Counted from the first letter of the stretch, positions 10,870 through 33,465 are shown. The stretch: 54,163 bases of DNA from a virus (IMGVR_UViG_3300047457_001050:1-54163); one strand, 5' to 3'. The notes: a model not told the origin generated them from the letters alone. Program-made: numbers and translations.

Positions 10870-11576
10870 TGTGGATGATCGTATGGACACTGATAGCCAC
10901 ACACATAACAATAATTTGCGTGACGCTATATCTACACAGGGGCATGGCACACCGTGGTATCGTGTTTCATCCCCTATTAAGCCACTTTATGAGGTTGTGG
11001 TTATGGCTGACTACTGGTATGGTTACAAAAGAGTGGATGGCAGTTCATCGTGCGCATCATAGATATAGCGACCAGCCAGGCGATCCGCATAGTCCTGTTG
11101 TTTTTGGCCGTTACAATATTCTCTTACGTGGCGTTAGATATTATCGTATGGCTCTTGAGGGAGGGATACTGGCCAAGACCTACGCTCCCGATGCGCCCTC
11201 TGATTGGATAGAACGAAAAATTTATTCCGAACTTCCATGGTTAGGAATTACTCTACTGCTAATTATAAATGTTTTATGTTTTTCATTGTGGGGAGTTTTA
11301 ATATGGTTAGTTCAAATGGCTTGGATACCATTTTGGGCAGCAGGCGTAATCAACGGTGTAGGACACTGGTTAGGATATAGAAATGGACGCACGGAAGATA
11401 ATAGTAGGAACATTTGTCCTTGGGGTATTGTTATTGGTGGAGAGGAGTTGCACAACAACCACCATCTTAACCCAGCGAGTGTTAAATTATCACGCAAATG
11501 GTTTGAAATAGACATAGGCTATATATACTTAAAGATGTTTGAGTTTTTACATTTGGCTAAGATTAGGGAGATATAA
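10869..11576 (+). CDS. Membrane fatty-acid desaturase (acyl-CoA/acyl-lipid type)
   Basis: ATG 10869 shares a base with the upstream TGA. The 235-residue protein has all three di-iron histidine boxes in the right order: HRGMAH (His23, His28), HRAHH (His60-64) and HNNHH (His195-199). There are hydrophobic segments before box 1, around residues 40-52 and at 122-168. This is the delta-9 desaturase layout, shorter than bacterial homologues of about 280-300 residues. It would insert a double bond into host acyl chains in the inner membrane, using ferredoxin or a similar donor. It may serve membrane fluidity or lysis, and may act with the lipid-remodelling genes at 18-19.5 kb. Confidence 0.88.
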   Translation: MWMIVWTLIATHITIICVTLYLHRGMAHRGIVFHPLLSHFMRLWLWLTTGMVTKEWMAVHRAHHRYSDQPGDPHSPVVFGRYNILLRGVRYYRMALEGGILAKTYAPDAPSDWIERKIYSELPWLGITLLLIINVLCFSLWGVLIWLVQMAWIPFWAAGVINGVGHWLGYRNGRTEDNSRNICPWGIVIGGEELHNNHHLNPASVKLSRKWFEIDIGYIYLKMFEFLHLAKIREI

Positions 11577-11577
11577 G

Positions 11578-12585
11578 GTGGCAATAAGAAGAATTGTTAG
11601 TGTTCATTTTAATGAAGATTATGACCAACTCAAAGATGAAATGTTTTATGATTCTGATACTAACACAATCATTATACCAGATGAAGGTGGTCTTAGAAAA
11701 ATCATTTCAGCGCCGTTAGAAGAAACAGTATCAGAGGCTGTTCCTGGTCCTAAAGGTGATCAAGGAGAACCAGGTCCTGCTGGTAGAGATGGAGTTGATG
11801 GACCTCAGGGACCTCAGGGAGAAAAAGGAGAACCTGGTAGAGATGGTATAGATGGAGCACCTGGACCTAAAGGTGATCAAGGAGAACCAGGTCCTGCTGG
11901 TAGAGATGGAGCACCTGGTCCTAAAGGTGAAAAGGGAGACCAAGGTATACAGGGCGTACAAGGTCCTGCTGGTCGAGATGGACTACAAGGACCAAAGGGA
12001 GATTCAGGACAAGATGGAACTCCTGGTCGAGATGGTGTAGGTATCTCTACCGCAACTATTACCAATGGTTTCCTTATTATTACTAAAACAGATGGAACTA
12101 CTGTTAATGCTGGAAGTGTTGCTACCACATCTACAAGTTCAACAACACGATCAAGTGGTCCTGTAATGGTAGGAGGTGCTCCTAATCCATTCGCTCCCGT
12201 TATAGTCTCAGCACCCCCAGGTTACAAGGCGGCTAACATTGATGACGGTGTTGAATTATCATTGGACACATTGGCTGTTCAGTTAGCCCCTAGTGGTAGT
12301 CGTAGTTTACAATTTAGAACAACTAGCGGAACCTTATCAGTAAACATCACAGGACAGATCTACTGGGCCAAAGGTGACTATACAGGAAATTGGAGTGCTA
12401 ATTATTGGAATGGAAACACATTAACTACAGCATGGCTACAACCATTTACATGGAGTTTTCCATGGCAGGGCGACATGGCCATATACAATGTTCAAGATAT
12501 GACCAATCGTAGATTTTATAGAATCACACTAAGTATAGGTGGTGGTTACAAAAAGAATACAATTATTATAGAGAGAATGGTCTAG
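11578..12585 (+). CDS. Collagen-like fibre protein
   Basis: I choose GTG 11578, one base after the desaturase stop, with AGGGAGAT upstream. The 335-residue protein has a 56-residue N-terminal domain that starts AIRRIVSVHFNEDYD. It then has about 33 uninterrupted Gly-X-Y triplets (residues 57-155, rich in GPKGDQGEPGPAGRD blocks), a Ser/Thr-rich linker and a C-terminal beta-rich domain with many Trp and Tyr (WAKGDYTGNWSANYWNGN). The collagen part should form a trimeric stalk. Such proteins are common as phage tail or capsid fibres. The N-terminus would anchor and the C-terminus could bind a receptor or glycan. The repeat DNA is also a recombination-prone tract. Confidence 0.85.
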   Translation: MAIRRIVSVHFNEDYDQLKDEMFYDSDTNTIIIPDEGGLRKIISAPLEETVSEAVPGPKGDQGEPGPAGRDGVDGPQGPQGEKGEPGRDGIDGAPGPKGDQGEPGPAGRDGAPGPKGEKGDQGIQGVQGPAGRDGLQGPKGDSGQDGTPGRDGVGISTATITNGFLIITKTDGTTVNAGSVATTSTSSTTRSSGPVMVGGAPNPFAPVIVSAPPGYKAANIDDGVELSLDTLAVQLAPSGSRSLQFRTTSGTLSVNITGQIYWAKGDYTGNWSANYWNGNTLTTAWLQPFTWSFPWQGDMAIYNVQDMTNRRFYRITLSIGGGYKKNTIIIERMV

Positions 12586-13814
12586 TAACCATAGTTCCCA
12601 GGGTCGTTCTTAAATTTAATTTCATCTAATAACGACTCTCCTTCTATCTTCCAATTGGTAAAATCAGTCTTGTTAATTGTATTCATTAACAGTTGAAGTT
12701 TGTTCTGCGCTGAAGGTTCAAACAGTCCTCTCAATACCCACAACCATAAAAACTGTTGATGTTTTTCACCAATCTTATTATAGTAGTCGCATAATTTTAA
12801 CATAGCAGGCTGACTCTTTCTACGAGCCATAGTGACTAACTGTTCTACAGCATCTGTGATTTCATTCTGACTACTATGAGGATCTTCCATAATTGTAGAA
12901 CTGTATTCCATTTGTGCTTCTGGATTGGTCTTTGCGGCCTGTTTTAAAAATTGTAATCCAAGGCTACGATGAACACCCAACGGTCCTTGTAGCAGTTTAT
13001 ATATTGTCATAGCACGATCGCTGTCTATGCCCTTACAGTATTCACTTAATATAGCAACTACCACATGACGAAGTTCTACAGGCACTAATTCCTTGCCGGA
13101 CATGTCTAATAGTTCATTAAGGCTTGGTCCACATTTTTTTGTTATACGCCACATCAACACACGAGTAGCAGGACCAAATTGTCGATCACGTTTGAGATTT
13201 TGTGCGTCCTGTAGAGATTTACCTACAGCAGGTTTATCATTAACCACACTCTTTATCAGTTCTTCTTTACTGTATTTTACACTTTCTTTATGAACTACAT
13301 TGGGATTCTTTTGAGCACCTTTGATCTTAACAGCATAAATTTTAATAGGGTCTTTGATATTTTTAAATGACTGTGGACCACGCCATTCTATTTCTAAATT
13401 AGATATTTTACCACTTACAGCATCGAAAACTTGGCTGCTAAAGCAAACACCACCGAGGTCAGCAGTGCTTTCTATACGAGCAGCAATGTTTACAGTGTCG
13501 CCCATGAGATTATCACCGTAGGCAAAAACCTCTCCCAGATGTAGTCCAATCCGCCAGCGCATGTCTATGTTTAATGACTGTATTTTATTTTGAATTTCGT
13601 AGGCACATTTTACAGCATCTGTGGCACTGGGAAATTCAGCGAGAACAGCATCTCCTGCTGTGTTAAAAATACGACCATTATATGTTTTAATAGAAGGGTC
13701 AATAATAGACCTACATTGATCTAATTTGCGCAGTGTTCCTTCTTCATCTGCGCCCATCATACGACTATAACCAATTACATCACTACATAATATTGTGGTT
13801 AGTTTTTTGTCCAT
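12582..13814 (-). CDS. Class III nucleotide cyclase with helical C-terminal region
   Basis: The 410-residue soluble protein has an N-terminal class III cyclase domain (1-170). Metal-binding Asp12 (CSDVIGYS) and Asp55 (NTAGDAVLAEF) are present, and Asn109/Arg113 (VNIAARIES) match the transition-state residues. The base-recognition pair is not standard: the usual Lys, four residues before Asp55, is Asn51, and the usual Asp/Thr, seven before Asn109, is Asn102. The product might therefore not be cAMP. Residues 230-400 look like helical repeats. The stop overlaps that of the convergent collagen gene, and AAGGTG precedes the start. It lies behind a second cyclase on the same strand. Confidence 0.85.
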   Translation of the reverse strand: MDKKLTTILCSDVIGYSRMMGADEEGTLRKLDQCRSIIDPSIKTYNGRIFNTAGDAVLAEFPSATDAVKCAYEIQNKIQSLNIDMRWRIGLHLGEVFAYGDNLMGDTVNIAARIESTADLGGVCFSSQVFDAVSGKISNLEIEWRGPQSFKNIKDPIKIYAVKIKGAQKNPNVVHKESVKYSKEELIKSVVNDKPAVGKSLQDAQNLKRDRQFGPATRVLMWRITKKCGPSLNELLDMSGKELVPVELRHVVVAILSEYCKGIDSDRAMTIYKLLQGPLGVHRSLGLQFLKQAAKTNPEAQMEYSSTIMEDPHSSQNEITDAVEQLVTMARRKSQPAMLKLCDYYNKIGEKHQQFLWLWVLRGLFEPSAQNKLQLLMNTINKTDFTNWKIEGESLLDEIKFKNDPGNYGY

Positions 13815-13941
13815 TTAACACCTTATGGGTTTGACTCCGTTTAAAGTTATACCTAGTTTCTGCCATTCGTCTGCGTTTCCTATCACAAAGTAGGGCCAGA
13901 ACCAATGTGTTACAAATATCTTTACATACGAATCTATAAGG

Positions 13942-15996
13942 CTACTTGCTAGTTGCTCTGAATACGCCGTCCCAATCTGATGGTAATCCTGCACTGGCCA
14001 TTTCATGAATGCGTTCGGTCCATAGTTCATAGTAGTGATCCATTTGTCCATCAAATTTTCCTTTAAGATTTTCTACTGCTTTCAGCGCCTTATTCCATTG
14101 TTGAGCACGATAGTAGGCCAACATTTCATCATGGCGTTCTTTATCTGCTAGCCATTGACTGATCTTACCTTCTTCTGGATTATAGAACACCGTATGAATG
14201 GTTACGCCTTCTTTTTTACCCTTCACTGCTATACAATCTAGTTCTAATGTAAAATATTGATTGTCTAGTCTTTGAGCAGTTTCTGGACCTAGCACAATTA
14301 GCACGCCATAGTTCTTGCTTTGTCCTTCTAAGCGGCTGGCCAAATTAACTGCGTCACCCAAACAAGTATAGTCAAAACGTTGCTCACTGCCCATATTGCC
14401 GACGACAACAACCCCAGTGTTAATACCAATACCCATACCAAAAGCAGGTGTTCCTTCCTTTGCGATTTCATCGTTAAACTCCTTGAGATTGCCTAACATT
14501 TCAAGGGCTGCTTTGACACTTTGACGACAATGCCAATTATCATCAATAGGGCTGTTCCAAAATGCCATTTGAGCATCACCGATATATTTGTCTAGTGTGC
14601 CGTGGTTTTCAAGAATACGCTTGGTCATGGCTGTCATATAACGGTTCATTATCTTAGTTAACCCTTGAACATCTTTGCCATAGTGTTCTGATATTGATGT
14701 AAAGCCACGCACATCTGTAAACATAATTGACAGTTCTTTTTCTTCACCGCCCAGTTTAAGTAGGCTAGGATCTTTGATCAGTTTGGCCACAAGATCCGGT
14801 GATAGGTAACTTTGAAATTGTTTGCGTATCTGTTGTTTCTGGAGGAATTCGCTTATAAATTTAACCGTATAAGCATGTAGTGCTACAAGAAGAATACTAA
14901 GGGTAGGCAAAGTAGCATCAATAAGCCACCTATAATTACTATACCCGTACATACTGCCTGCCACACATGAACCAGCAAGAATAATATAAAATCCGATACC
15001 GACATAGACCCACCTTGATAAAAAGATTAAAACGATGCCAAATACAGCAATGGCGCCTAATTCGGCGGCATCTGCCCAGTCGGGTCTCTGTATGTGACTC
15101 TGTGTAGTTAGTGTTCCTAGCACTGTGCCCTGTAAAAAGTGAGGCCATACCTCTCCTTTAGCAGTTGCCACAGGATTAGACAAGCCTGCTGCTGATAATC
15201 CCACAATAACAATCTCACCATTAAATGAATCCGGTAAAGTCATTAAACTATGTTCCTTAGGCGTTGCTGCCCAATCGATCCATATACGACCTAGAGGATC
15301 AGTAGGAATTTTTCCTATTTTTGGAACTCTTAATGCCTCTACACCTATGTCACCTATCTTTACTTGAACTTTAGGATCTTGTGCGGCTACTCTTAGAGTT
15401 TCTAATGCTAGAGCAGGGTGTAATTTACCTTGGCTGGCAATAACTAGAGGCATACGACGGACCACCCCGTCTATCTCAGGAAAGGTGTTTACAACGCCAT
15501 ATCCTGCGGCCTGTCCTGTTATTATGGCCACTGAACTGATTACGCCTGGATACTCTACAACTTTTCCCTGGGGATCTTGGCCAACGACCTGAGTATTAGG
15601 TGGTTGTGTGGCATTACGTTCTTTTGTATGTCCTAATACTGGAAGAACCACAGGGTGCGTTTTAAGATATTGTGCTAGTTCTTTATCTTCTTTAAACCTA
15701 TCTTGCTCAGGCATTAACACGTTAAAGACTACCAAACCTGCGTTTCTTTTGTAAAGTTCTTCAATTATTTCCTTATAGTCTCCTCTAGGAAAAGGCCATT
15801 GACCCATTTTCTCTAGAGTAGCCTCATCAATGTTTACTGTATGAACAGGAACATCTACTCGAGGTTGACTGGTTATAAGTTGATCAAAATACCGTAGTCT
15901 AACAGATTCTACAAAACTTGGATCAAAGAATCTTAATGCTATAACTGCTATAAGTGTGAGCAAGGCCCACCAAGGGTTAAGTATAATCTTTCTCAT
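13942..15996 (-). CDS. CHASE2-domain adenylate cyclase
   Basis: The 684-residue protein has an N-terminal membrane anchor (about 8-24), an extracytoplasmic CHASE2 sensor (about 30-305), three membrane helices (312-375) and a C-terminal class III cyclase. Catalytic residues are intact: metal Asp428 (FTDVRGFTS) and Asp474 (YIGDAQMAFW), adenine-recognising Lys470 with Thr544, and Asn551/Arg555 (VNLASRLEG). CHASE2 senses unknown periplasmic signals in bacteria. In this phage it should produce cAMP inside the host. An AATAAATA late-type promoter sits seven bases before the ATG. Such a full receptor cyclase is unusual in a phage. Confidence 0.92.
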   Translation of the reverse strand: MRKIILNPWWALLTLIAVIALRFFDPSFVESVRLRYFDQLITSQPRVDVPVHTVNIDEATLEKMGQWPFPRGDYKEIIEELYKRNAGLVVFNVLMPEQDRFKEDKELAQYLKTHPVVLPVLGHTKERNATQPPNTQVVGQDPQGKVVEYPGVISSVAIITGQAAGYGVVNTFPEIDGVVRRMPLVIASQGKLHPALALETLRVAAQDPKVQVKIGDIGVEALRVPKIGKIPTDPLGRIWIDWAATPKEHSLMTLPDSFNGEIVIVGLSAAGLSNPVATAKGEVWPHFLQGTVLGTLTTQSHIQRPDWADAAELGAIAVFGIVLIFLSRWVYVGIGFYIILAGSCVAGSMYGYSNYRWLIDATLPTLSILLVALHAYTVKFISEFLQKQQIRKQFQSYLSPDLVAKLIKDPSLLKLGGEEKELSIMFTDVRGFTSISEHYGKDVQGLTKIMNRYMTAMTKRILENHGTLDKYIGDAQMAFWNSPIDDNWHCRQSVKAALEMLGNLKEFNDEIAKEGTPAFGMGIGINTGVVVVGNMGSEQRFDYTCLGDAVNLASRLEGQSKNYGVLIVLGPETAQRLDNQYFTLELDCIAVKGKKEGVTIHTVFYNPEEGKISQWLADKERHDEMLAYYRAQQWNKALKAVENLKGKFDGQMDHYYELWTERIHEMASAGLPSDWDGVFRATSK

Positions 15997-17385: not shown

Positions 17386-17597
17386 TCTAACTTCTCCCCA
17401 CAATGCGGACAGCGTTTAGTGTCCTTACGATGTTGATGTAGAACATCTTCCCATTCTTTTATTTCTTTTATAATCTTTTTCAGTGTTCTACGGCAACGGA
17501 TGGGTTTGTCTTTGTCTAATTCATCTTTAAGACGTTTTCTAAGTTGTCCTACTCGTTGTTCAAACACACCTAAAAATCCACCGGTTGATTCACTCAT
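17382..17597 (-). CDS. Small basic helical protein with C-terminal CxxC
   Basis: The 71-residue protein is a charged helix (VGQLRKRLKDELDKDK, then TLKKIIKEIKEWEDVLHQHRK) ending with TKRCPHCGEKLE, half of a zinc ribbon. With only two cysteines near the end plus Cys35, it might bind zinc as a dimer. It overlaps the end of the glycosyltransferase gene by eight bases and is thus the last part of the plcP-agt transcript. Function unknown. Confidence 0.55.
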   Translation of the reverse strand: MSESTGGFLGVFEQRVGQLRKRLKDELDKDKPIRCRRTLKKIIKEIKEWEDVLHQHRKDTKRCPHCGEKLE

Positions 17598-18595
17598 TAT
17601 ATGCCTCTATTAGATTGTCACGAAATATCGTCCAGGCAGCATCCCATGACCACCTTTGACTACCAAGTATAACATCGTTTCTATCTAATATCAAGCATTC
17701 TGTTATAGCCTGTTTGAGATTATCTCTCAAATATCCTGTCCGTCCATGATCAACAACATCTTGCGGTCCCTGGACAGGATATGCTGCCACTGGTGTGCCA
17801 CAGGCCATGGCTTCTATCATGACAATGCCAAATGTTTCCCAGCGTGAGGGAAATACAAATACATCAGCATTGGCATAGTAAGTGGCCAATTCATCACCAC
17901 GCTTAAATCCCACAAACTCTACATTGGGATACTTTTCTTCTAATTCTGCCCTATAAGGACCATCTCCCACCATGATTTTACGAGCACCGAAATAGTCCAA
18001 GGAACAAAAATCATCCAAGTTCTTTTCCTTGCTGACACGACTGACACAGACCAATACAACTTCTCCTGCTCGTTTTGTTCGTAGTTCAGGACGAAACACG
18101 GATCTATCTACACCACGAGTCCATGGTATGATATTACCACGTAGTCCTTTGCTCTCTAATTGACGGACCATTGATTCTGTGGTTGTCAATACTCGACCTG
18201 TATGTTTATGAAACCACTTTATGTAACGCCAAGTTATTGATTCAGGAATGCCAAGAAGGGTATATAGTCCTTCAGGGAACTTAGTGTGATAAGCAGTATT
18301 ATACCTAATATGATGTTTTGTAAGATATTTTCGAGCCCACAGACCCACAGGACCCTCCGTGGCGATATGGTAATAATCCGCACCGATCTCCTCAATCTTC
18401 TCGCCCATCTTCCTCGGAAGGGCAAGTTTGACTTCGTTATAGATAGGGCAATCAACATGGGCTGAAGTCCCCGGGAGTAATATAAACAAACTGATAACTG
18501 TCACGAAGCGCACACGCCTCAATATTCGAATATGTTGTAACGACGCCATTAATTTGATTTGGTAGGTTGTCTGTTATGATCAATATTTTTTTCAC
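17590..18595 (-). pseudogene. agt: Agt-like GT4 glycosyltransferase with an internal frameshift
   Basis: The enzyme is split between two frames. A GTG at 18595, behind GGAGGGCAGAT, opens a frame starting MKKILIITDNLPNQINGVV and reaching FVYITPGDFS, the exact N-terminal fold of MgtA/Agt-type GT4 enzymes. That frame stops near 18455. The next frame carries CPIYNEVKLAL and HIATEGPVGLWARKYL, then the GT4 donor motif with Glu-x7-Glu (WETFGIVMIEAMA). The span is 1,006 bases, one more than 335 codons, so a single +1 shift restores about 334 residues. It could be a sequencing error at CCCGGGG, a real mutation or programmed shifting. Agt glycosylates the diacylglycerol made by PlcP; plcP lies just upstream. 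Confidence 0.78.
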
Positions 18596-18755
18596 ATCTG
18601 CCCTCCACTCGAAACCAGGGAAACTTGACCCAGTAGTTCATGTTTTTAAGTGCCTGTTCGCAACTGGCCTGATCACGAAATTCTAATTGTATACGCCCAG
18701 GTATATCTGTAGCGTCATAGATATTAACCACTATGAGGAATAAGATCCACGTCAT
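18549..18755 (-). CDS. Small secreted or membrane-anchored protein between plcP and agt
   Basis: I start at ATG 18755, inside the end of plcP; an in-frame start at 18794 is possible. The 68-residue product begins with a hydrophobic stretch (TWILFLIVVNIY), then a short domain with two cysteines (FRDQASCEQALKNMNYW...VEGRC). This resembles small periplasmic phage proteins of unknown role. It overlaps plcP by 32 bases and the GTG start of agt by 47 bases, so all three should be co-translated. Confidence 0.5.
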   Translation of the reverse strand: MTWILFLIVVNIYDATDIPGRIQLEFRDQASCEQALKNMNYWVKFPWFRVEGRCEKNIDHNRQPTKSN

Positions 18756-19497
18756 CTCGGTCTCGAGTCCAGTAGATGATCTCCCAACGGCCATCTAAAT
18801 GCTCAACTAAGGCGGAACATGATTCCACCCAGTCACCATCATTCATATATACAACACCATTTATTTCTTTGATTTCTGCTTTGTGTATGTGTCCGCAGAT
18901 GACTCCGTCAAAACCACGCTTACGGCAATAGTCACTGAGATTACGCTCAAAATGAAAAACAAAATCCACAGCCCGTTTGACACGTTGTTTAAGATATTGA
19001 CTAAGACTCCAGTAACCGAATCCAAATCTATGCCTCCAGCGATTGAAGGCTGTATTGAATATGAGTAGTAGGTCATAGGCCTTGTCCCCTAAAAAACTGA
19101 TCCAAGGTGTCAGTCTTGCTATACCATCAAAAAGGTCACCATGGACCACTAAGTATTTACGCCCATCTATGCCCATATGATCTGCTTGGTTACAGATATG
19201 GATACGACCAAAGGCAATATTGTAGGGCATCATTGGTCTTAGAAATTCATCATGATTACCTGCCACATAGACCACTTCAGTGCCTCGTTTGGCATGTCCT
19301 AATATTCTACGCACTACATTTGAGTGACTTTGACGCCAGTGCCATTTGTTTTGTTGTATTTTCCATCCATCTATAATGTCACCAACCAGATATAATTTTT
19401 TGGCAGAATTATGCTTGAGAAAATTATTGAGCACATCGGCCTTACAGCCTTTTGACCCAAGGTGTATGTCTGAAATGAATATGGTTTGGTATTCCAT
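18724..19497 (-). CDS. plcP: PlcP-type phospholipase C (calcineurin-like phosphoesterase)
   Basis: The 257-residue metallophosphoesterase belongs to the LpxH-like COG2908 group. All metal motifs are present: SDIHLG (Asp10, His12), GDIIDGW (Asp40), GNHDE (Asn81, His82), VHGD (His119) and GHIHKAEI (His203, His205). Family-specific stretches YLVGDIIDGW, YWSLSQYLK, GFDGVICGHIH and NDGDWVESC read like PlcP of alpha-proteobacteria and marine heterotrophs. PlcP removes the phospho-head group from membrane phospholipids during phosphate starvation, leaving diacylglycerol. An Agt-like glycosyltransferase follows, as in bacterial plcP-agt operons. A Pho-box-like promoter lies upstream. A UDP-diacylglucosamine hydrolase role (LpxH) is the alternative, but context and sequence favour PlcP. 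Confidence 0.82.
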   Translation of the reverse strand: MEYQTIFISDIHLGSKGCKADVLNNFLKHNSAKKLYLVGDIIDGWKIQQNKWHWRQSHSNVVRRILGHAKRGTEVVYVAGNHDEFLRPMMPYNIAFGRIHICNQADHMGIDGRKYLVVHGDLFDGIARLTPWISFLGDKAYDLLLIFNTAFNRWRHRFGFGYWSLSQYLKQRVKRAVDFVFHFERNLSDYCRKRGFDGVICGHIHKAEIKEINGVVYMNDGDWVESCSALVEHLDGRWEIIYWTRDRDDVDLIPHSG

Positions 19498-19502
19498 AAT
19501 AT

Positions 19503-19536
19503 TATTTACGGAATAAATGTTAAAAAATTATTACAT
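19503..19536 (-). promoter_or_regulatory. Pho-box-like promoter of plcP
   Basis: On the minus strand ATGTAAT (19530-19536), AATT spacer and TTTTAAC (19519-19525) form a degenerate PhoB repeat pair. Ten bases on is TAAATA (19503-19508), a -10 candidate, the same geometry as the phoX promoter. The second half-site is poor. TAAATA is five bases from the ATG, so the message may be leaderless. Confidence 0.45.
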
Positions 19537-19573
19537 TTTAGTTAAAGTTTAGTCCAGGACAATATGATAGAAA

Positions 19574-19632
19574 TAGGGCCTCTTGGGCCCTACTGCTGGT
19601 TACGAGCATCCAGCACCACTCTATCGTGTGGT
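19574..19632. other. Three tandem hairpins in the gap between 19637 and plcP
   Basis: TAGGGCC/GGCCCTA (19574-19592, 5-base loop), GCTGG/CCAGC (19595-19614) and ACCAC/GTGGT (19615-19632) follow one another. They lie just after the minus-strand gene at 19637. None is followed by a T-run on the minus strand. They may stabilise the mRNA end or form a small structured RNA. Confidence 0.4.
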
Positions 19633-19636
19633 CGTT

Positions 19637-19867
19637 TTAGGCTGCGAAACGATAATCTGCTTTTTCTTCTACTGATAATTCTTTATGATCATCGTCACTA
19701 TTATTTTCTTCACTGATTTGTTCAATACGAACATTGACTTTTTCGTAGTTACTTAAAACATCTAATAGGTCCCTTACATGTGTAAGAACCTGTAATTGAT
19801 CTAGGCTATCATCATCTTCTAATTCAATACGGACATCTAGGTCCCAGGCACGCATCTCAAGTTTCAT
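19637..19867 (-). CDS. Acidic 76-residue protein with its own Pho box
   Basis: ATG 19867 follows AAGGAGCC. The protein is strongly acidic (IELEDDDSLDQLQ, EENNSDDDHKEL). It is predicted to have a beta-strand start (MKLEMRAWDLDVRIELED), a helix and a second strand (EKVNVRIEQI), perhaps a small ferredoxin-like fold. It lies between pstS and plcP, behind its own Pho-box-like promoter and a strong leader hairpin. I do not recognise the family. Its position suggests a phosphate-starvation role. Confidence 0.6.
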   Translation of the reverse strand: MKLEMRAWDLDVRIELEDDDSLDQLQVLTHVRDLLDVLSNYEKVNVRIEQISEENNSDDDHKELSVEEKADYRFAA

Positions 19868-19885
19868 TTTGTGGCTCCTTATGCT

Positions 19886-19916
19886 ATGAGAGGAAGGCTT
19901 ATGACCTTCCTCTCAT
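19886..19916. terminator. 12-bp perfect hairpin after pstS / leader of 19867 gene
   Basis: ATGAGAGGAAGG (19886-19897), loop CTTATGA, CCTTCCTCTCAT (19905-19916). No T-run follows. It could end or protect the pstS message, or act as a leader structure close to the ribosome site of the acidic gene. Confidence 0.5.
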
Positions 19917-19923
19917 ATTTACA

Positions 19924-19960
19924 ATTATCTGAGTATTTTATTTTTACAGATTTATTACAT
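19924..19960 (-). promoter_or_regulatory. Pho box and -10 for the 19867 gene
   Basis: On the minus strand ATGTAAT (19954-19960), spacer AAAT, CTGTAAA (19943-19949): two 7-base PhoB-type repeats with an 11-base period, matching CTGTCAT-n4-CTGTCAC in layout. GATAAT (19924-19929) follows as a possible -10. It begins at the pstS stop codon. Confidence 0.6.
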
Positions 19961-20970
19961 TAATGTTTGATCTGACTCCAAACACGACTGCGGATATCGG
20001 CCTGTAACTTGTCAGGTAAATGAACATAGTCAAGTTCTGCGCTTAACTTAGCACCGTTCTTAAATGCCCAATCAAAGAATTTAATAACTTCTTGGCTGGC
20101 CTTTTTATCAGCAGGTTCTTTATACATTATAATAAAACTTGCTGTGGTAACAGGCCAAGTATCCTTGCCGCCCTGATTTACAATACTCAAGCCCATTCCT
20201 GGAACTGAGAACCAATCTGCTCCCGCTGCGGCTGCTGCGAAAGTTGCGTCATCAGGGGCAACAAAGTTACCAGCCCGGTTTTGTAGCAACATGTAATTCA
20301 TTAAATTCTTCTTAACATAAGCATATTCAACATAACCTATGCTGCCTTTAATCCTATTTACATTGGCAGCAACACCTTCATTGCCTTTGCCGCCAACTGA
20401 ACTAGTAGCAGGCCATTTTACAGCAGCACCACGGCCCACACGCTTTTCCCACTCTGGGCTAACCACAGTCAAGTAGTCTGTCCAGTTGAATGTGGTTCCT
20501 GATCCATCAGCACGATGAACCACGGTGATATTCATGTCTGGTAACTTTTTACCTGGATTTAATGCTTGTAGTTTAGCATCATTCCATTTGGTAATGTTTC
20601 CCATAAACACTTCTGCCATAACAGGTCCTGTTATGCGAAGTTCACCTGGCTTGAACCCTTCAAGATTAACCACAGGCACTGTGCCACCTATGATAGCAGG
20701 GAATTGAACTTGACCCAATTTGTCAAGGTCTTCTCCTTTTACCGGAGCATCACTTGCTCCAAAGGCTACAGTTTTATTGTTGATTTGACGGATACCACCC
20801 GAACTACCAATGCTTTGATAGTTTAAGGTATTGCCTGTGGCTTTGTTATATGCTTCGGCCCATTTGGCATAGATAGGATATGGAAAAGTAGCACCAGCGC
20901 CGGTTATTTCTGCTGCTTGAACAGCCACAGAGAATAAAGCGGCCGCAGCAGCCATTAAAAATCGTTTCAT
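19960..20970 (-). CDS. pstS: PstS phosphate-binding protein
   Basis: This 336-residue periplasmic protein has a Sec signal peptide with cleavage after AVQA (about residue 19). Phosphate-binding stretches are clear: GAGATFPYPIYAKWAEAY, SIGSSGGIRQ, FGASDAPV and HRADGSGTTFNWTDYL. The length is normal and it is likely functional. PstS delivers phosphate to the host PstCAB transporter; no transporter genes are here, so the phage protein would feed the host's complex. It follows phoX and a Cys-rich peptide in one transcript (AAGGAAAAC before ATG). It reads like betaproteobacterial PstS, and its codon use is more G+C-rich than the sugar operon, which suggests capture from a host. Confidence 0.96.
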   Translation of the reverse strand: MKRFLMAAAAALFSVAVQAAEITGAGATFPYPIYAKWAEAYNKATGNTLNYQSIGSSGGIRQINNKTVAFGASDAPVKGEDLDKLGQVQFPAIIGGTVPVVNLEGFKPGELRITGPVMAEVFMGNITKWNDAKLQALNPGKKLPDMNITVVHRADGSGTTFNWTDYLTVVSPEWEKRVGRGAAVKWPATSSVGGKGNEGVAANVNRIKGSIGYVEYAYVKKNLMNYMLLQNRAGNFVAPDDATFAAAAAGADWFSVPGMGLSIVNQGGKDTWPVTTASFIIMYKEPADKKASQEVIKFFDWAFKNGAKLSAELDYVHLPDKLQADIRSRVWSQIKH

Positions 20971-21004
20971 TTAAGTTTTCCTTTTTAGTTTAATTAGATT
21001 GAGA

Positions 21005-21091
21005 TCAACAACGACAAGTAGTTTTACATTCGCAATAACACATACGAAGTTTTTCACATACCCAACACCAACATTGTTTTAGTTTTGTCAT
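21005..21091 (-). CDS. 28-residue Cys-rich (metallothionein-like) peptide
   Basis: ATG 21091 follows a perfect AAGGAG (minus strand) at optimal spacing, and the frame stops at TGA 21005-21007. Eight of 28 residues are Cys, at 7, 9, 12, 18, 20, 22, 26 and 28, giving CWCWVC, CYCEC and CRC motifs. Basic residues fill the gaps and there is no signal peptide. This resembles a minimal metallothionein. It lies between phoX and pstS in the same transcript, so it should be made under phosphate starvation. A role in binding zinc, iron or copper is inference. Confidence 0.6.
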   Translation of the reverse strand: MTKLKQCWCWVCEKLRMCYCECKTTCRC

Positions 21092-21113
21092 TGTTGATCT
21101 CCTTTGCGTTATT

Positions 21114-23398: not shown

Positions 23399-23686
23399 CT
23401 ATTTGTTTAATAAGGAATTTTTAAGATCAAGATACTCAGAAATAAAATTCATCTTGTCTGCTGTAGAAGGCATGTCCTGCCATTCTGCTTCTTTGACATT
23501 CTTAGTAACAAAGATTTCATAGTCGTGTCCGTTGCCCTTGTATAAGTTTACAGTTTGAAAACCTGCGGGGCTGTCTGCTGCTTGAATTAAGGCCTGTGCT
23601 AGTTCTTTTAATGCGGCACGTTCTCCCACTATGTAAGCGGGGTCTTTGACATCCTTACCTGTGTATATTTGTAGTCGTGATCTCAT
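23399..23686 (-). CDS. Uncharacterised 95-residue protein
   Basis: This soluble protein overlaps the end of the polymerase gene by four bases, so it is co-translated with it. It looks like an alpha/beta fold: RSRLQIYTGKDV, a helix (GERAALKELAQALIQAAD), FQTVNLYKGNGHDYEIFVTK and a helical end. I do not recognise a family. It may be a partner of the DnaE-like polymerase or unrelated. Confidence 0.6.
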   Translation of the reverse strand: MRSRLQIYTGKDVKDPAYIVGERAALKELAQALIQAADSPAGFQTVNLYKGNGHDYEIFVTKNVKEAEWQDMPSTADKMNFISEYLDLKNSLLNK

Positions 23687-26439: not shown

Positions 26440-26673
26440 TTAATGTTTTGTAGAGAAGTTGGCCAATAAAAGGTCACGGATCATTTCTAGTTCTTCATCC
26501 GAAGATACTATTATTTTTTCATCTAAATCAGTATCACCTTCCCAAATGTGTTTAGGAAGTCTTAGAAACAAGTAGATATCTTTCCAGGTTGTTGTAACAC
26601 CTTGACTATAGCATAATTCTATCACACGAAAGATCTGTAGACAAATTTCTTTGTGTAATTGATTGACGTTCAT
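26440..26673 (-). CDS. Small helical protein ending the curli operon
   Basis: ATG 26673 overlaps the TGA of the curlin-repeat gene (ATGA). The 77-residue product has no signal peptide and looks helical and acidic (HIWEGDTDLDEKIIVSSDEELE). It is co-transcribed with the curli-like genes. It resembles no curli component I know. Function unknown. Confidence 0.55.
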   Translation of the reverse strand: MNVNQLHKEICLQIFRVIELCYSQGVTTTWKDIYLFLRLPKHIWEGDTDLDEKIIVSSDEELEMIRDLLLANFSTKH

Positions 26674-28517
26674 GGTGACCCCTGTGTTACTGTAACAGAG
26701 CAACCACTTAGGTTAGCGCAGGCCTGTGTTATGTTATATTGTTGATTTATTGATCCTTGCTGTGTAAGATTCAATGTGCTTGCTCCACCAGCATTGGTCA
26801 AACTAATTGTAGCCTTATGACTGCCATTACCTGTCTGTGTAGCAGTAACAGTATGTCCACTACCTGCCAATACTAAATCCATATATTGCCCACCTGCTGC
26901 GGCCTGATTAACATTTACATTATTACTATTGCCTGTGATCGTAGCGTAGAAAGAATGATAGGTATTTTGTCCAAATCCTTGATTTACTGTAATAGTATTT
27001 GTATTACCAGTAACCTCAGTCTTATTATAGTGTCCAGAATTGACGCCACCTGCGTTGGCCTGTTTGAGTGTTATGGTATTTGTATTTCCTGTAACTTTGA
27101 GGTCAATAAAATGCCCGCCGCTTTCAATGCCATCTTTGCTGACTGTGGGCCAAGTTCCATTCCAGCCCTGCTGTAGAGTTATAGTATTGGCAGAACCATT
27201 GACATCAAATTCAATTAGATTCTTTCCACTACCCAGTCCATCACCTTGACGTATTCTAAGAGTATTATAATCGCCTATTAATTGAGCATCACCAATACCA
27301 CCACGACCCTGTATATAATTTGTAGTTCCTTCCTGTATAACGTCAACTTCTGCGTAACTACCACTTTGAGTAATATATAATTTGTTGCCTTGTGCCAATG
27401 CGGCCACACGAGCACGATCGGAATTTTTTTGATTAAGTTGTGAGGCAGTCTCTGTGCTTGAATACCAACTTGACCCACCGCCTGCTTCTTGACCTATGCT
27501 TTCACCGCCCAAGACCTGATAGGTTCCGTCGCCTTGTGGATCCCAGGCTATTTCAAAACTGGTAGGGCCACCTCCACTGTTATCTGTATAAAATTGAACA
27601 TAGAGTATTTCACCAGGTTTGGCTGTATATGAACCATAAGAGTAGGAACAGCAATCACCGTTAGTCACCTGTGTGCCATTGATATATAGCCTGTGTTTAT
27701 CATCCCATCCTGTTCTAAACCATATGGTCTTGCTGACACCATTCATAGCACCAGGCCAACGAATATATCCTGTAACCCAGGCATAAAATCCAGGACCAGT
27801 TCCTCCCTGACTCCAACTAGCATTTGATTGACTCCAACTGCCACTATTACAGCAGTCATACCACTGTATAAACCATCCACGATTTGATGTGCCTCTGGTA
27901 TAGGGATATAGGCTTGAGCCACTGGTCTGTGCTACATTATTAGTGGGCAAGGCTGGTGGTGCCGGACTGGTGACCATGGCCTGTGTGAGTGCTTGATACT
28001 GTGCTGTAGTAGCAGTGCCGCCGTGTGTCCAAGTTGAACTGGTAGTTGAGGTTGATGCCTGTAGATTGATGTAGTATCCATACCACGTGGTGTTATCCAC
28101 AAACATATACTGACGACCTTCGTTAGCACCATTTTCAAAGGCGATAAATCTACCATAAGGTATCATTACAGTATTAAGAGTATTGTTACTATTCCACAGT
28201 TCTAATTGTATAGGATTGCCTGGCATACTGCCGTTATTATAACTAAAACGCACAGTCATACCAGATGTAAAACTAACAAAGCCTGTGCCAGGTTTATACA
28301 ATTGGCTTGAGATTAGACCACTGACGGTGCAGGTTCCGCTTGATTGGGTGCAGGCTCCTACATTCCATTGACTGTCGAATACCTTGCCCACTGGCAGTTG
28401 TAGGTCAGTGACATCAGCACGAGCCGGAGTAGGCGTGAGTGCTACAAAAATTAAACCCAGGCACAATATAAGAACAAATATGCCAAATCCTGTTACCCAT
28501 TTATATCCGTATTTCAT
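26670..28517 (-). CDS. Large curlin-repeat adhesin with PA14-like domain
   Basis: The 615-residue secreted protein has an N-terminal hydrophobic signal (about 10-35, ending PTPARA). Next come a Trp/Gly/Ser-rich region with paired Cys (WYDCCNSGSW, NGDCCSYSY) and a PA14-like carbohydrate-binding stretch (WFRTGWDDKHRLYINGTQV). From about residue 370 there are curlin-type repeats: YITQSGSYAEVDVIQEG, VTGNTNTITLKQ, VTGNTNTITVNQ, ITGNSNNVNVNQ, LNLTQQGSINQQYNITQ. The regular Gln/Asn ladders are those of amyloid curlins. It probably is exported through the CsgG-like pore and displayed on the host cell. It is much larger than CsgA/CsgB, and the lectin-like part suggests adhesion. Confidence 0.8.
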   Translation of the reverse strand: MKYGYKWVTGFGIFVLILCLGLIFVALTPTPARADVTDLQLPVGKVFDSQWNVGACTQSSGTCTVSGLISSQLYKPGTGFVSFTSGMTVRFSYNNGSMPGNPIQLELWNSNNTLNTVMIPYGRFIAFENGANEGRQYMFVDNTTWYGYYINLQASTSTTSSTWTHGGTATTAQYQALTQAMVTSPAPPALPTNNVAQTSGSSLYPYTRGTSNRGWFIQWYDCCNSGSWSQSNASWSQGGTGPGFYAWVTGYIRWPGAMNGVSKTIWFRTGWDDKHRLYINGTQVTNGDCCSYSYGSYTAKPGEILYVQFYTDNSGGGPTSFEIAWDPQGDGTYQVLGGESIGQEAGGGSSWYSSTETASQLNQKNSDRARVAALAQGNKLYITQSGSYAEVDVIQEGTTNYIQGRGGIGDAQLIGDYNTLRIRQGDGLGSGKNLIEFDVNGSANTITLQQGWNGTWPTVSKDGIESGGHFIDLKVTGNTNTITLKQANAGGVNSGHYNKTEVTGNTNTITVNQGFGQNTYHSFYATITGNSNNVNVNQAAAGGQYMDLVLAGSGHTVTATQTGNGSHKATISLTNAGGASTLNLTQQGSINQQYNITQACANLSGCSVTVTQGSP

Positions 28518-29668
28518 CTGTATGTTTGATTGATAACAATCTGTCCTTGTGCTCGGCCACTGCTAAAGTTGTTGCTAATACTCATCATATCTTGTGTAAC
28601 GCTGACCTGAACCTGAGTATTCATTTGTAGTGAAACTTGTGCTACATTGCGGCCGTTCTGACTAACACTTTCTATGGCCCAACCTACCTGTTTAGTTTCT
28701 GATTTGTCTTTCCATATTTTACGAAGATATTCTGGATCTTCTGATTTTGTTTCTTCCTTGGCAGTTGATGCAGGAATTTCTTCTTTGACTTCAACTTGTG
28801 CTACTGTGGTTTTGGTGTCTGAAGCAGGGGCTTCTTGAGTCTTTTTAGCGTCTGCCGCCTGGTTACTTGCGACTTGTTCTGAGTTATCACCACCATCTTT
28901 GCTCTCTTCTTTGCTCTCTTTCTTTGAGTCATCTTTCTTCACTCCTGGAACACCTGCTTGTGCTGCTGCTGCTCTTGCTGCTGCTACTAGCGGAGCCCCA
29001 CTCATTGTGGGCGGCGGGCTTACTAATAGATTAGTGCCTACTGGCATGGCAAACAAATTCACTGTTAATGGCGGTGTAGGCGGTGCGCCTGCTGTTTCTA
29101 CCATGGTAGCCTGAAAGGGTCTATTCATACTGACCAAATTAGGTCCACTTTCTACATCAATGGCGCCACTGCCGCATATAGCACCTTTTACATTGGGTCC
29201 TGTATTATCCTCACAACTGGGCATTAAGATCACTGTAGATGCGCCAGTTTCATTTACTGCCATGACAAAGTCAGTGCCACGCACAGCGATTGCCGCAGTA
29301 GGTGTATTGATCTTAACAGCATTGGGATTAGCACCGGCTATGGCACCACTGACATAGCGCACAGCACCACTGGTGGCCTTTAGACCAAGTTTTCCTCCCT
29401 GAGCATTTTTAGGATCATAAACAAAATCATCAATAACCAAACTACTGTGTTCCGTGACTGATACTGTAGTATTGTCCTTAAAAGTAATTTTAACCTTGCC
29501 ATTCTTTGTTTCAATCTTATCATTAGTTTGAATCACCGTTCCCTTGGCTATTGTCACAGAATCTTTACCACGTTTTATTGTGCCACTGCCTGTGACCTCT
29601 GTAACTGAACCTATGTCTGCCCAGGCCGTGGTGGCGCAAAATAATAAACTTAAACAGAAATAACGCAC
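28514..29668 (-). CDS. Secreted FecR-domain protein
   Basis: The 384-residue protein has a Sec signal (CLSLLFCATTAWA) followed by a FecR domain: GSVTEVTGSGTIKRGKDSV, AKGTVIQTNDKIETKNGKVKI in two segments, DNTTVSVTEHSSLVIDDF and AAIAVRGTDFVMAV, all typical. The second half is low-complexity, Lys/Glu/Ala-rich (KKDDSKKESKEESKDGG), with a C-terminal beta region (VSLQMNTQVQVSV). There is no anti-sigma membrane helix, so it is the stand-alone periplasmic type found next to curli-like or CHASE2-cyclase genes. It overlaps the adhesin gene by four bases. It may chaperone or anchor the fibre. Confidence 0.85.
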   Translation of the reverse strand: MRYFCLSLLFCATTAWADIGSVTEVTGSGTIKRGKDSVTIAKGTVIQTNDKIETKNGKVKITFKDNTTVSVTEHSSLVIDDFVYDPKNAQGGKLGLKATSGAVRYVSGAIAGANPNAVKINTPTAAIAVRGTDFVMAVNETGASTVILMPSCEDNTGPNVKGAICGSGAIDVESGPNLVSMNRPFQATMVETAGAPPTPPLTVNLFAMPVGTNLLVSPPPTMSGAPLVAAARAAAAQAGVPGVKKDDSKKESKEESKDGGDNSEQVASNQAADAKKTQEAPASDTKTTVAQVEVKEEIPASTAKEETKSEDPEYLRKIWKDKSETKQVGWAIESVSQNGRNVAQVSLQMNTQVQVSVTQDMMSISNNFSSGRAQGQIVINQTYR

Positions 29669-29677
29669 GGCAACTCC

Positions 29678-30544
29678 TTATGGTGTTGTTCGTTGAATTA
29701 TATTCCAAACTCCACTGCTGCCCACTGTAGTGACCTTGACCACATTATCCTGTGTGCCTGATTGAGCAATATAGAATCTGTTGCTGGCTCCATTTACATC
29801 CAACCATATGCTGCTACCATAAGCACTGTTGCCTGTCTGGCTCAGGTTGAACACGTTGAAGTTACCTGCCACTGTGATAGTTTGGTTATGATTGTTGCCC
29901 ACTGCGTCAATATTGAACTCATTGCTATTACCACTGGTCACAGTGATTTGACTGTTTAGGTCATCACCTGTGCCACGAAACTGTATGGCATTGCTGTTAC
30001 CTGTAAATTTCCAATTTAGAACAGCATCCTTACAGCCTGTTAGAGCAGCACCTGCTGAACTTGATCCACTACCGCATAACACATCAGCAAAGTTACTGTT
30101 GCCCAACTGCTGAATAGTAACATCTACTCCCTGTGCTGCCACATCTGGGCTTATTGCCTTCATAGCAATAGTATTGTTATTGCCTACCTGATTTAATATA
30201 ATGTTATGATCGTCACCACGCAGATAGATAGCACTGTTTACTGTATATTGACGAACACCACCTGGGTTCAAACGATCTACAATACCTGTTATAATTTTGC
30301 TATAGGTAGAATCACTGCCAGCAGTGTTACCACTGCCTGTTTGTGTGATGCTGACGTTTGGACGTTCACCATCTTGGTCAATGAACACACGATTGGTAGC
30401 ACTCTGTGTCAGTGCTGTGGCAGTGCCTGCCATTACTCCAACTGTGGGATCAACGGGAGTTGTTGGGCTTGGTGCTGTTACTGTAGTCTGTGCTAGCACC
30501 GGAAATGCTGAGATCATCAACAGTGTTATTAGTGTTTTTTTCAT
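29678..30544 (-). CDS. Curlin-repeat fibre subunit (CsgA/CsgB-like)
   Basis: I start at ATG 30544, with GGAG upstream; an in-frame start at 30562 is possible. The 288-residue product has a Sec signal (KKTLITLLMISAFPVLAQ) and curlin repeats of the Q-x-G-x-x-N type: QTGSGNTA, NQVGNNNTIA, QQLGNSNFADV, DAVGNNHNQTITVAGN, SQTGNSAYG, QSGTQDNVV. Curlins polymerise into extracellular amyloid after passing CsgG. It is about twice the length of E. coli CsgA. It lies directly downstream of the CsgG-like gene. Confidence 0.82.
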   Translation of the reverse strand: MKKTLITLLMISAFPVLAQTTVTAPSPTTPVDPTVGVMAGTATALTQSATNRVFIDQDGERPNVSITQTGSGNTAGSDSTYSKIITGIVDRLNPGGVRQYTVNSAIYLRGDDHNIILNQVGNNNTIAMKAISPDVAAQGVDVTIQQLGNSNFADVLCGSGSSSAGAALTGCKDAVLNWKFTGNSNAIQFRGTGDDLNSQITVTSGNSNEFNIDAVGNNHNQTITVAGNFNVFNLSQTGNSAYGSSIWLDVNGASNRFYIAQSGTQDNVVKVTTVGSSGVWNIIQRTTP

Positions 30545-30561
30545 GTTCGCTCCGTCCTTCA

Positions 30562-31473
30562 TTAGTTTGTTTTAACTGGTTGTCCACTGGAGTCGACCAG
30601 TCCTTGATTGGGGGCTGATTCAGTAGACTGGGGGGTAGTTTTGGGCTTCGGTGTCTGAACCACGTCATGTTTGGCTTGCTCCTTGTATTTCCACAGTCCT
30701 TGGCGCTCACCTTGATTTATCAGTTCTATGACACCTGCTTCAATTGCTGAACGCATGGCATAATTGCCTGGCTCATTGAATGTTTGCCCTGTATCCAGTT
30801 CAAACGCACGAGTAGCGGTATTAAAGAATTTCAGTGCTGTGAGGCCTTCTGATGTGCTTAATAGGTTCTTTTCTATGGTCACACTGGTTAAGACTTCGCC
30901 AGTTTGAACACTGACTAATCTTAGACTGATAACCACTAGGTCTTGTGTGTATTGAGTATATGGTCCTATGCCCAACCAACGAGCACCTGTGCCCCCTGTT
31001 AGAGTATTTGAATTATAATCAATAATACCACCTTCTATGATCACACCTGCTAGAGTTAATGGTGGCAGCATTTTGGCCTTTTCACCATCGTAGATTTCTC
31101 TAGTCTGTTTGATCATTTGTCTTTCTTTAAGTAAGTTATCTAGGCCCACACGCTCGACCACTGTGAACCATTGACGATTGCCAACTTCACTTAGAGTTTT
31201 AATTAGATAATTTTCAGCGCCTTGAGTAACTGCTGATGAAAATAAACTCAATGTGTTACTGGGCTTACGTTGGCCTGTTAGATCTCTAAAGTTGTATACA
31301 GCCACAGTGATTGGAGGACCTGCTGGGGCTGGCACTTGATTTAACTCTTTCAGTATGTTTTGACTTACTTTGGGTTCGCTCGCTGCCTGCGCATCAACGA
31401 TTGGTCGTATAGCATTACAACCTCCTAATGCTATACTTGCTGCGATTATGCTTAATTTCAGTATGTTCTTCAT
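30562..31473 (-). CDS. csgG: CsgG-like curli secretion lipoprotein
   Basis: The 303-residue protein starts at ATG 31473, just after the CsgF stop. It has a lipoprotein signal with lipobox ALGGC (Cys19). The CsgG domain is well conserved: ITVAVYNFRDLTGQRKPS, TQGAENYLIKTLSEVG, WFTVVERVGLDNLLKERQMI, ARWLGIGPYTQYTQDLVVI and GEVLTSVTIEKNLLS. CsgG forms a nonameric outer-membrane pore that secretes curlin subunits. The C-terminal tail (residues 265-303) is Pro/Thr-rich and extra. CsgG alone is known in some marine phages; here it is next to CsgF and two curlin-like substrates. Confidence 0.92.
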   Translation of the reverse strand: MKNILKLSIIAASIALGGCNAIRPIVDAQAASEPKVSQNILKELNQVPAPAGPPITVAVYNFRDLTGQRKPSNTLSLFSSAVTQGAENYLIKTLSEVGNRQWFTVVERVGLDNLLKERQMIKQTREIYDGEKAKMLPPLTLAGVIIEGGIIDYNSNTLTGGTGARWLGIGPYTQYTQDLVVISLRLVSVQTGEVLTSVTIEKNLLSTSEGLTALKFFNTATRAFELDTGQTFNEPGNYAMRSAIEAGVIELINQGERQGLWKYKEQAKHDVVQTPKPKTTPQSTESAPNQGLVDSSGQPVKTN

Positions 31474-31474
31474 A

Positions 31475-31948
31475 TTAGAATCCAAAACTTGCTATTGGCA
31501 CACGCACAGTGGTCACGGTTCCTGCTTTATCTACCACTGTCAATGTTACATCTTTGTCTGTTTTTACCCAGGTAATGGTATTGCCATCTAATGAAAATAC
31601 ACCTGAGGTAGGATTGATACATCCTGCTATAGGCAAGCCGTCTGCACCATTACATTTATTTTGGAATAGATTGGTGCTGAGTTGACTGGCTAATTGAGCA
31701 TATACTTGACTGGTAAACAGGCTCATAAAGCGAGCCAATGGTGTATTCTGCGATTCTGCCAGCAATCTGGCCTCTTCAGATTTTTTCTGACTTTCTATGT
31801 TATCTTTACGTGCTTTCTCTATACTGTCAATAGTAAGAACATGGCTGCTCCAGTTTTGTCCGTTAAAACTAGGACTCTTAAACTGTTGGACTAGTTCAGC
31901 ATGAACGAGTGTTGGAATGAGAAGCAATACCAACGCAATTTTCTTCAT
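31475..31948 (-). CDS. csgF: CsgF-like curli assembly factor
   Basis: The 157-residue protein has a Sec signal (KKIALVLLLIPTLVHA) and then LVQQFKSPSFNG, which matches the mature CsgF N-terminus that plugs into the CsgG pore (F-R-N-P-x-F-G-G type). The middle (FTSQVYAQLASQLSTNLF) and the end (DVTLTVVDKAGTVTTVRVPIASFGF) also follow CsgF. CsgF couples secretion to nucleation at the cell surface. It is the first gene of the five-gene curli-like set, with AAGGAGCG before ATG and a GATAAATA element upstream. Confidence 0.85.
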   Translation of the reverse strand: MKKIALVLLLIPTLVHAELVQQFKSPSFNGQNWSSHVLTIDSIEKARKDNIESQKKSEEARLLAESQNTPLARFMSLFTSQVYAQLASQLSTNLFQNKCNGADGLPIAGCINPTSGVFSLDGNTITWVKTDKDVTLTVVDKAGTVTTVRVPIASFGF

Positions 31949-31992: not shown

Positions 31993-32370
31993 TTAACTGC
32001 TTCTAACCATTATATACCAAATTATGAACAAGTAGCAAATATGATGTGCCATTTGATCTGCACCAAACTCTCGCCAGAATCTAGGTTTAGTCATGTCCTT
32101 AATACCATACTTTACTTTAACCCAATCTATGTGGTAGTGTGCTATACCTTCTAATATACTAATAGCAAGTATTTCAACTGGGGTAAGATAATGAAAGAAA
32201 CTAAAAATTACAAGAGCCACTATGCTCCATAGAATATGATCTAATGAGTGGCTTAAACCTATAGGATCACCATAAATTCCCTTTTTTACAGTTTGATCAT
32301 ATGTTTGAATAAAAAAGTCTGCATACCAGTGCTTGGCCTGTAGCAGAAACATTAATAGTAATATCTCCAT
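31993..32370 (-). CDS. DUF3307-type membrane protein
   Basis: The 125-residue protein has three or four hydrophobic helices and conserved His/Asp positions: QAKHWYADFFIQT, GLSHSLDHILW, IAHYHIDWVKVKYG and DQMAHHICYLF. These fit DUF3307, a family frequent in phages and bacteria and with no established function. The intramembrane His/Asp pattern suggests a metal site. An ACTAAATA late-type element lies five bases before ATG. Confidence 0.7.
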   Translation of the reverse strand: MEILLLMFLLQAKHWYADFFIQTYDQTVKKGIYGDPIGLSHSLDHILWSIVALVIFSFFHYLTPVEILAISILEGIAHYHIDWVKVKYGIKDMTKPRFWREFGADQMAHHICYLFIIWYIMVRSS

Positions 32371-33457: not shown

Positions 33458-33465
33458 TATTTATA
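33458..33465 (-). promoter_or_regulatory. T4 late promoter TATAAATA
   Basis: A perfect match to the T4 late promoter on the minus strand, seven bases before the ATG at 33450. Confidence 0.6.

Follow-up and report, generated by a model that had tools for sequence, protein, structure and literature searches.

Curli clusters of phages and CHASE2 cyclases of bacteria

Genes for curli, which are sticky amyloid fibres, were first reported from phages in PMC7029224, and a phage curli (T8SS) cluster that includes genes for a FecR protein, an adenylate cyclase and a histidine kinase was described in 2022 (PMC9599517). In the podovirus version of this cluster the histidine kinase gene is located before csgF. 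An alphaproteobacterial origin was proposed for the cluster in PMC9599517, where FecR and the cyclase were reported not to occur within bacterial T8SS operons; a CHASE sensor is not named in the main text of that paper. Melnitz, a phage of OM43 bacteria, was said in the Melnitz study to lack the fibre genes csgA and csgB (PMC9004378).

In bacteria, CHASE2 cyclases of the Campylobacterota cluster with genes for FecR, a TPR protein and a phosphodiesterase (PMC9239204), and in Burkholderia a FecR gene is found beside a CHASE2 histidine kinase (PMC5192318). The CyaD1, CyaD2 and CyaK proteins of Sinorhizobium meliloti combine CHASE2 with a class III cyclase (PMC13001267, PMC5498481) and are driven via the outer-membrane protein NsrA (PMC13001267). 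A FecR-domain protein belongs to the same regulon. Loss of the S. meliloti FecR gene smc02177 leaves perception of the plant signal unaffected (PMC5498481), so linkage of FecR to a CHASE2 cyclase need not mean that FecR provides the input.

The locus considered here lies in a 54,163-base record classed as viral (IMGVR_UViG_3300047457_001050), the whole of which is referred to below as the window, and the window is from a virus of aquatic bacteria. A search with the structural protein encoded at 51560-52999, intended to place the phage in a family, returned 0 matches. The larger of two cyclases encoded in the window belongs to the same full-length family as the pelagiphage T8SS adenylate cyclases (HTVC008M YP_007517885, Melnitz QZI94833; PHROG 35576) and has the same neighbours, but it is only 38-39% identical to them and, unlike its counterparts in the pelagiphage clusters, it has a phosphate cassette between itself and the curli genes and a second cyclase behind it (Table 1). 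It shares the CHASE2-class III architecture with the S. meliloti proteins, for which no curli genes have been described and whose output runs through the CRP-type protein Clr, a receptor type that was not found in the phage records. A FecR partner is common to the window and the Campylobacterota cluster, but the latter includes a cAMP phosphodiesterase and the window has no convincing one.

Table 1. Cyclase and curli features of the window, with positions counted from its first base
Feature	Position	Strand	Basis
CsgF-like curli assembly protein	31475..31948	-	PF10614 3.1e-9
CsgG outer-membrane curli secretion pore	30562..31485	-	PF03783 1.2e-48
Curlin-repeat protein (CsgA/B-like)	29678..30562	-	PF07012 4.8e-5; three QxGxxN repeats
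FecR-domain protein with N-terminal signal-like sequence and C-terminal curlin-like strand	28514..29668	-	PF04773 1.1e-10
Second curlin-like large protein	26670..28517	-	Position, similarity to phage curlin-2 proteins, two QxGxxN repeats
Predicted CHASE2 receptor-type class III adenylate cyclase, 684 aa	13942..15996	-	Pfam, PHROG, model, catalytic residues
CHASE2 sensor domain, predicted periplasmic (residues ~26-305)	15082..15921	-	Pfam and model boundaries
Class III cyclase catalytic domain (residues ~418-604)	14185..14745	-	K470/T544 adenylate-type pair
C-terminal helical tail (residues ~606-684)	13945..14181	-	Model
Soluble class III cyclase, 410 aa, 127 nt downstream of the first	12582..13814	-	PF00211 E=1.9e-7
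Catalytic domain of second cyclase (N-terminal)	13320..13814	-	D12, D55, N109, R113; substrate positions N51, N102
Orphan helical C-terminal domain of second cyclase (residues 171-410)	12585..13304	-	

Two adjacent class III cyclases

The first-pass annotation had described two adjacent class III cyclases, a membrane CHASE2 sensor cyclase with intact catalytic residues followed by a soluble enzyme, and this description holds. Both open reading frames are present on the minus strand at the positions given in Table 1, Pfam domains are found in both products, and both genes are intact and under purifying selection. A scan for promoters and terminators around the cyclases gave hits that were not above the level in shuffled sequence. 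The end of the second cyclase gene is overlapped by 4 bases by a gene on the opposite strand (11539-12585), whose product is a collagen-repeat protein that is tail-fibre-like by PHROGs.

The first protein matches CHASE2 (PF05226, E=1e-37) and Guanylate_cyc (PF00211, E=1.4e-21) in Pfam and matches PHROG 35576 over its full length (1e-232), which places it in that family. A chance domain match is ruled out by the full-length relatives encoded in many contigs. An AlphaFold2 model of the protein (mean pLDDT 88, from a 35-row alignment) has a first transmembrane helix at residues 8-24, the CHASE2 domain at about 26-305, helices at 308-328, 330-355 and 362-394, a cyclase fold at 418-604 and a helical tail at 609-684. 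The model and the hydrophobic segments together give the topology of a CHASE2 receptor, with the CHASE2 domain between the first transmembrane helix and a C-terminal transmembrane bundle and with a cytoplasmic output domain; the large CHASE2 domain is predicted to be periplasmic. The cyclase part of the model can be superposed on the adenylate cyclases CyaB (Pseudomonas aeruginosa) and CyaC (Spirulina), which are among the nearest solved cyclases by sequence as well as by fold.

The residues expected of a class III adenylate cyclase are all present in the first protein, namely the metal ligands D428 and D474, the substrate-binding pair K470 and T544, and the transition-state residues N551 and R555. 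When the window protein and 82 phage relatives are compared, D428, D474, K470 and R555 are kept in 83 of 83 sequences, the position of T544 is occupied by Thr in 75, Asp in seven and Ser in one, and that of N551 by Asn in 76 and Ser in seven. The protein is therefore predicted, from its sequence and its model, to be a working receptor-type adenylate cyclase. Whole-gene dN/dS against the sister contigs is 0.06-0.10 for both cyclase genes, and within the first gene it is 0.04-0.05 for the CHASE2 domain versus 0.10-0.15 for the cyclase domain, all of these ratios being approximate given pairwise dS values close to or exceeding 1. Of the large parts of the first protein, the CHASE2 domain shows the strongest constraint, exceeding that on the catalytic domain, and the sensor is therefore not vestigial.

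Stand-alone proteins of 99-128 residues that are homologous to region 567-680 of the CHASE2 cyclase are encoded near csgF in 13 other loci (L017, L018, L020, L021, L023, L025, L029, L056, L065, L066, L077, L079 and L080). These additional cyclase-like open reading frames were considered as second cyclases and rejected, as they are tail-only proteins. The tail-only protein may regulate the cyclase or act as its partner.

The second cyclase has no transmembrane segment by hydropathy. It possesses the class III metal ligands and transition-state residues listed in Table 1 but not the canonical Lys/Asp substrate pair, which is replaced by N51 and N102. Asparagine at the lysine position occurs in nine of 20 bacterial relatives and also in the aligned Rv1900c (PDB 1ybt), which we take to be an active cyclase, and asparagine at the other position occurs in none of the 20. 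Identity of the catalytic domain to soluble cyclases encoded in proteobacterial genomes reaches 46-48%, and by sequence the enzyme appears to be of a proteobacterial (rhizobial) type. While its catalytic domain is like those of the rhizobial-type soluble class III cyclases and Rv1900c/LipJ, the enzyme differs from its rhizobial-type relatives in the asparagine at the second substrate position and in the orphan C-terminal domain. Neither Pfam nor the phage collection contains a match to the 240-residue C-terminal region. This region is the better conserved part, with 95% amino acid identity to contig L085 versus 87% for the catalytic domain and an approximate dN/dS of 0.04 versus 0.10 (0.06-0.08 for the whole gene against the sister contigs). 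A structure model of the second cyclase, built from a three-sequence alignment, has a pLDDT of 46 and is not interpretable. Given the Asn/Asn substrate residues and the orphan C-terminal domain, the product of this enzyme is not predictable.

The curli/FecR cassette, its spread and its origin

A feature of the window that was absent from the first-pass annotation is a curli/FecR cassette located about 11-16 kb upstream of the first cyclase. Genes for CsgF, CsgG, a curlin and FecR are in the conserved order on the strand of the cyclases and form, with the second curlin-like gene, a T8SS module at 26670-31948; the second curlin-like protein has no significant Pfam match. The gene adjoining csgF (31993-32370) has, by eye, the look of one for a small membrane protein. 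The cyclase does not directly follow the cassette, from which it is about 11 kb away in the window, so co-transcription of the two is not assured; cassette and cyclase are separated in the sister contigs L005 and L006 as well.

The intervening DNA encodes a partial homologue of DNA polymerase III alpha, PhoX, PstS, a metallophosphoesterase and a GT4 glycosyltransferase. The polymerase homologue is a 554-residue protein (23683-25347) with only parts of the alpha subunit, the NTPase and finger domains. The other genes constitute a phosphate-stress cassette (17590-23321) that includes the PhoX alkaline phosphatase. Its metallophosphoesterase, which lies beside the cyclases, resembles UDP-diacylglucosamine diphosphatases, and PlcP-type enzymes carry a similar annotation; by analogy with PlcP-Agt, the cassette could serve phage-encoded remodelling of phospholipids to glycolipids. 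A homologous phosphoesterase gene is near the cyclase in 17 other viral loci. Elsewhere in the window there are a full-length DnaK (Hsp70) gene (35508-37409; E 5e-259) and a bilin reductase-like gene of the PcyA/PebS type that adjoins a probable heme-oxygenase-like gene (33461-34658), with ClpS-like and Hsp20-like genes adjoining that pair. A bilin reductase-like gene of this type recurs beside the curli cassette in 12 sources.

It had been thought that sensor cyclases are unexpected in a phage, and a search of phage genomes for CHASE2 was proposed; the search shows the expectation to be wrong. In the phage collection, a full-length CHASE2 cyclase is found in Melnitz (four records) and the SAR11 phage HTVC008M (two records), and at least 598 stretches in IMG/VR encode relatives, the longest of these viral contigs measuring 383 kb. 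With PHROG 35576, the cultured phages and the published cluster (PMC9599517) also taken into account, the CHASE2 cyclase is a known kind of phage gene. The second cyclase is rare, its carriers in the viral collection being the window and two sister contigs from one metagenome. In the two Melnitz and HTVC008M records that were read, the cyclase directly follows CsgF, CsgG, curlin, FecR and a second curlin. Contrary to PMC9004378, Melnitz (MZ577097) encodes two curlin-repeat proteins, as well as a FecR protein and the cyclase, beside csgF and csgG.

Linkage between the cyclase and the curli genes is evident from both directions. In the 63 viral cyclase loci that extend 7 kb or more upstream, FecR is present in 59 and CsgG in 59 (45 of 47 after clustering at 90% identity). 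Reciprocally, scanning from viral csgG finds FecR in all 57 loci with at least 4 kb downstream and a CHASE2 cyclase in 36 of the 39 with at least 8 kb; two of the three loci without it are the sister contigs of the window, whose cyclase, like that of the window, lies at a greater distance. Across 50,697 phage records, CsgG, FecR and the full-length CHASE2 cyclase co-occur in the same six genomes, the exception being one 1.5-kb Salmonella record that has CsgG only. The phage FecR proteins end in a short strand resembling a curlin repeat in 64 of 66 cases versus 6% of shuffled ends, although these sequences are related and do not represent 64 independent cases. The Pfam curlin model does not match the FecR C terminus, and the motif is for this reason a lead drawn from the pattern count.

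A bacterial counterpart of the module is found in a Hyphomonas sp. TMED17 metagenome-assembled genome (MAG), where csgF, csgG, curlin, fecR and CHASE2 cyclase genes lie in the same order as in phages on a 705-kb contig with bacterial-looking genes, fecR and the cyclase gene overlapping. This cluster is an exception to the reported absence of FecR and cyclase from bacterial T8SS operons (PMC9599517), and within the Hyphomonas family the arrangement was found in one of 105 genomes at the threshold used. The Hyphomonas cyclase is 41% identical to that of the window but, unlike in the window, is encoded on a bacterial contig with a FecR that lacks the curlin-like end. In a quick tree it joins the viral sequences with full support, other alphaproteobacterial proteins fall outside and the window protein lies deep inside the viral part. 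The tree agrees with the origin proposed in PMC9599517, and the best reading is that these phages obtained the module from an alphaproteobacterium and have carried it for a long time. CHASE2 cyclases on five MAG contigs assigned to Rhodobacteraceae, Flavobacteriaceae, Pelagibacter and Pirellulales (L087, L093, L094, L097 and L101) fall among the viral ones, and these are probably phage contigs in bacterial bins. A survey of 40 genomes of Alphaproteobacteria gave 49 CHASE2 cyclase loci, of which 12 have a FecR domain within 10 kb where about one would be expected, a significance that is indicative only since the genomes are related and the contigs fragmented.

A proposed signalling arm of the curli module and competing explanations

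We consider it reasonably probable, at roughly 0.6, that the CHASE2 cyclase is the signalling arm of the phage-borne curli (T8SS)/FecR module, with cAMP as its output acting on host receptors. Upon infection, the CsgG/CsgF pore and the curlins would be made; FecR, ending in its curlin-like strand, would read the state of curlin in the periplasm and act on the CHASE2 domain; and the dimeric cyclase would then produce cAMP that acts through host receptors, presumably of the CRP type, to the benefit of the phage. In the lineage of the window, this pathway would operate with the phosphate-stress cassette between module and cyclase and the second, soluble cyclase behind. A rise in host cyclic nucleotides in response to a periplasmic cue, as had been suggested from the cyclases themselves, is the natural reading.

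No cNMP-binding domain (PF00027) was detected in 31 virus records, including the window, and the domain is present in one of eight genomes from the genus of a Pelagibacter MAG, so in SAR11-type hosts cAMP would lack its usual receptor. The single class III cyclase found in the Pelagibacter MAG coincides in position with the cyclase that adjoins the curli cassette of L094. Receptors may exist in the hosts of other relatives. Two candidates for a cAMP phosphodiesterase were rejected: the metallophosphoesterase beside the cyclases resembles UDP-diacylglucosamine diphosphatases and not CpdA, and a second metallophosphoesterase (37994-38848) scores 24.9 bits against the cAMP phosphodiesterase model, far below its cut-off of 225.

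It is also conceivable, if unlikely, that the cyclase is active and linked to FecR but senses envelope, iron or phosphate stress, the curli genes being fellow travellers from an acquired bacterial island. FecR does occur near bacterial CHASE2 cyclases outside curli clusters (PMC9239204) and beside a CHASE2 histidine kinase (PMC5192318), and the window cyclase is closer to PhoX, PstS, the metallophosphoesterase and the glycosyltransferase than to the curli genes. Phosphate genes are near the cyclase in a minority of sources only, however (PhoX in 5 of 87, PstS in 7 of 87), and the order of curli genes, FecR and cyclase has been kept over the long term across very divergent viruses. A separate proposal, which we regard as speculative, is an amyloid-secretion checkpoint in which the curlin-like end of FecR reports curli export to the CHASE2 cyclase and the second cyclase, gained in this lineage and altered in its substrate residues, makes a different cyclic nucleotide.

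There is little to recommend the idea that phage cyclic nucleotides act against or around host defence, in the manner of Pycsar interference, with a non-adenine product of the second cyclase. PADLOC PycC models match both cyclases and the second has non-canonical Asn/Asn substrate positions. The residues reported for pyrimidine cyclases are Y50/D94/R97, F60/K104/F109 and F100/R142/Q144 (PMC11224242). The PycC matches can be accounted for by the class III fold that these enzymes have in common, the canonical adenylate-type enzyme gives the stronger match, and the window record encodes no cNMP-binding-domain receptor of the PycTM or PycTIR type. That the cyclases are decayed passengers without function is very improbable: the missing phage receptor is the sole point in its favour, against the low dN/dS of both genes and catalytic residues in the first protein that are invariant or conservatively changed. 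Misassembly of a host segment into a phage contig, which the first-pass annotation had raised against its own reading and which the bacterial-type neighbours PhoX, PstS, DnaK and TerC might suggest, is effectively excluded, because two further contigs share the block and its arrangement at 81-90% nucleotide identity, relatives are found on long viral contigs and in cultured phages, the protein nests in the viral clade and the record is classed as viral.

New in the present analysis are the recognition of the cyclase as a CHASE2 protein and the linkage statistics from both sides, together with the split arrangement, the curlin-like end of FecR, the tail-only protein encoded near csgF in other loci and the rare second cyclase. 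The widespread adenylate cyclase of the phage curli cluster, which was published but left unexplained, is thereby placed among CHASE2 receptors and linked to FecR in phages as well as in bacteria. The arrangement extends well past the named pelagiphages and can be rearranged, as well as extended by a second cyclase. If the checkpoint proposal were true, there would be a two-signal circuit in the infected cell. For the signalling-arm reading that we favour, the question of why phages of curli-less hosts carry curli genes becomes a testable signalling hypothesis.
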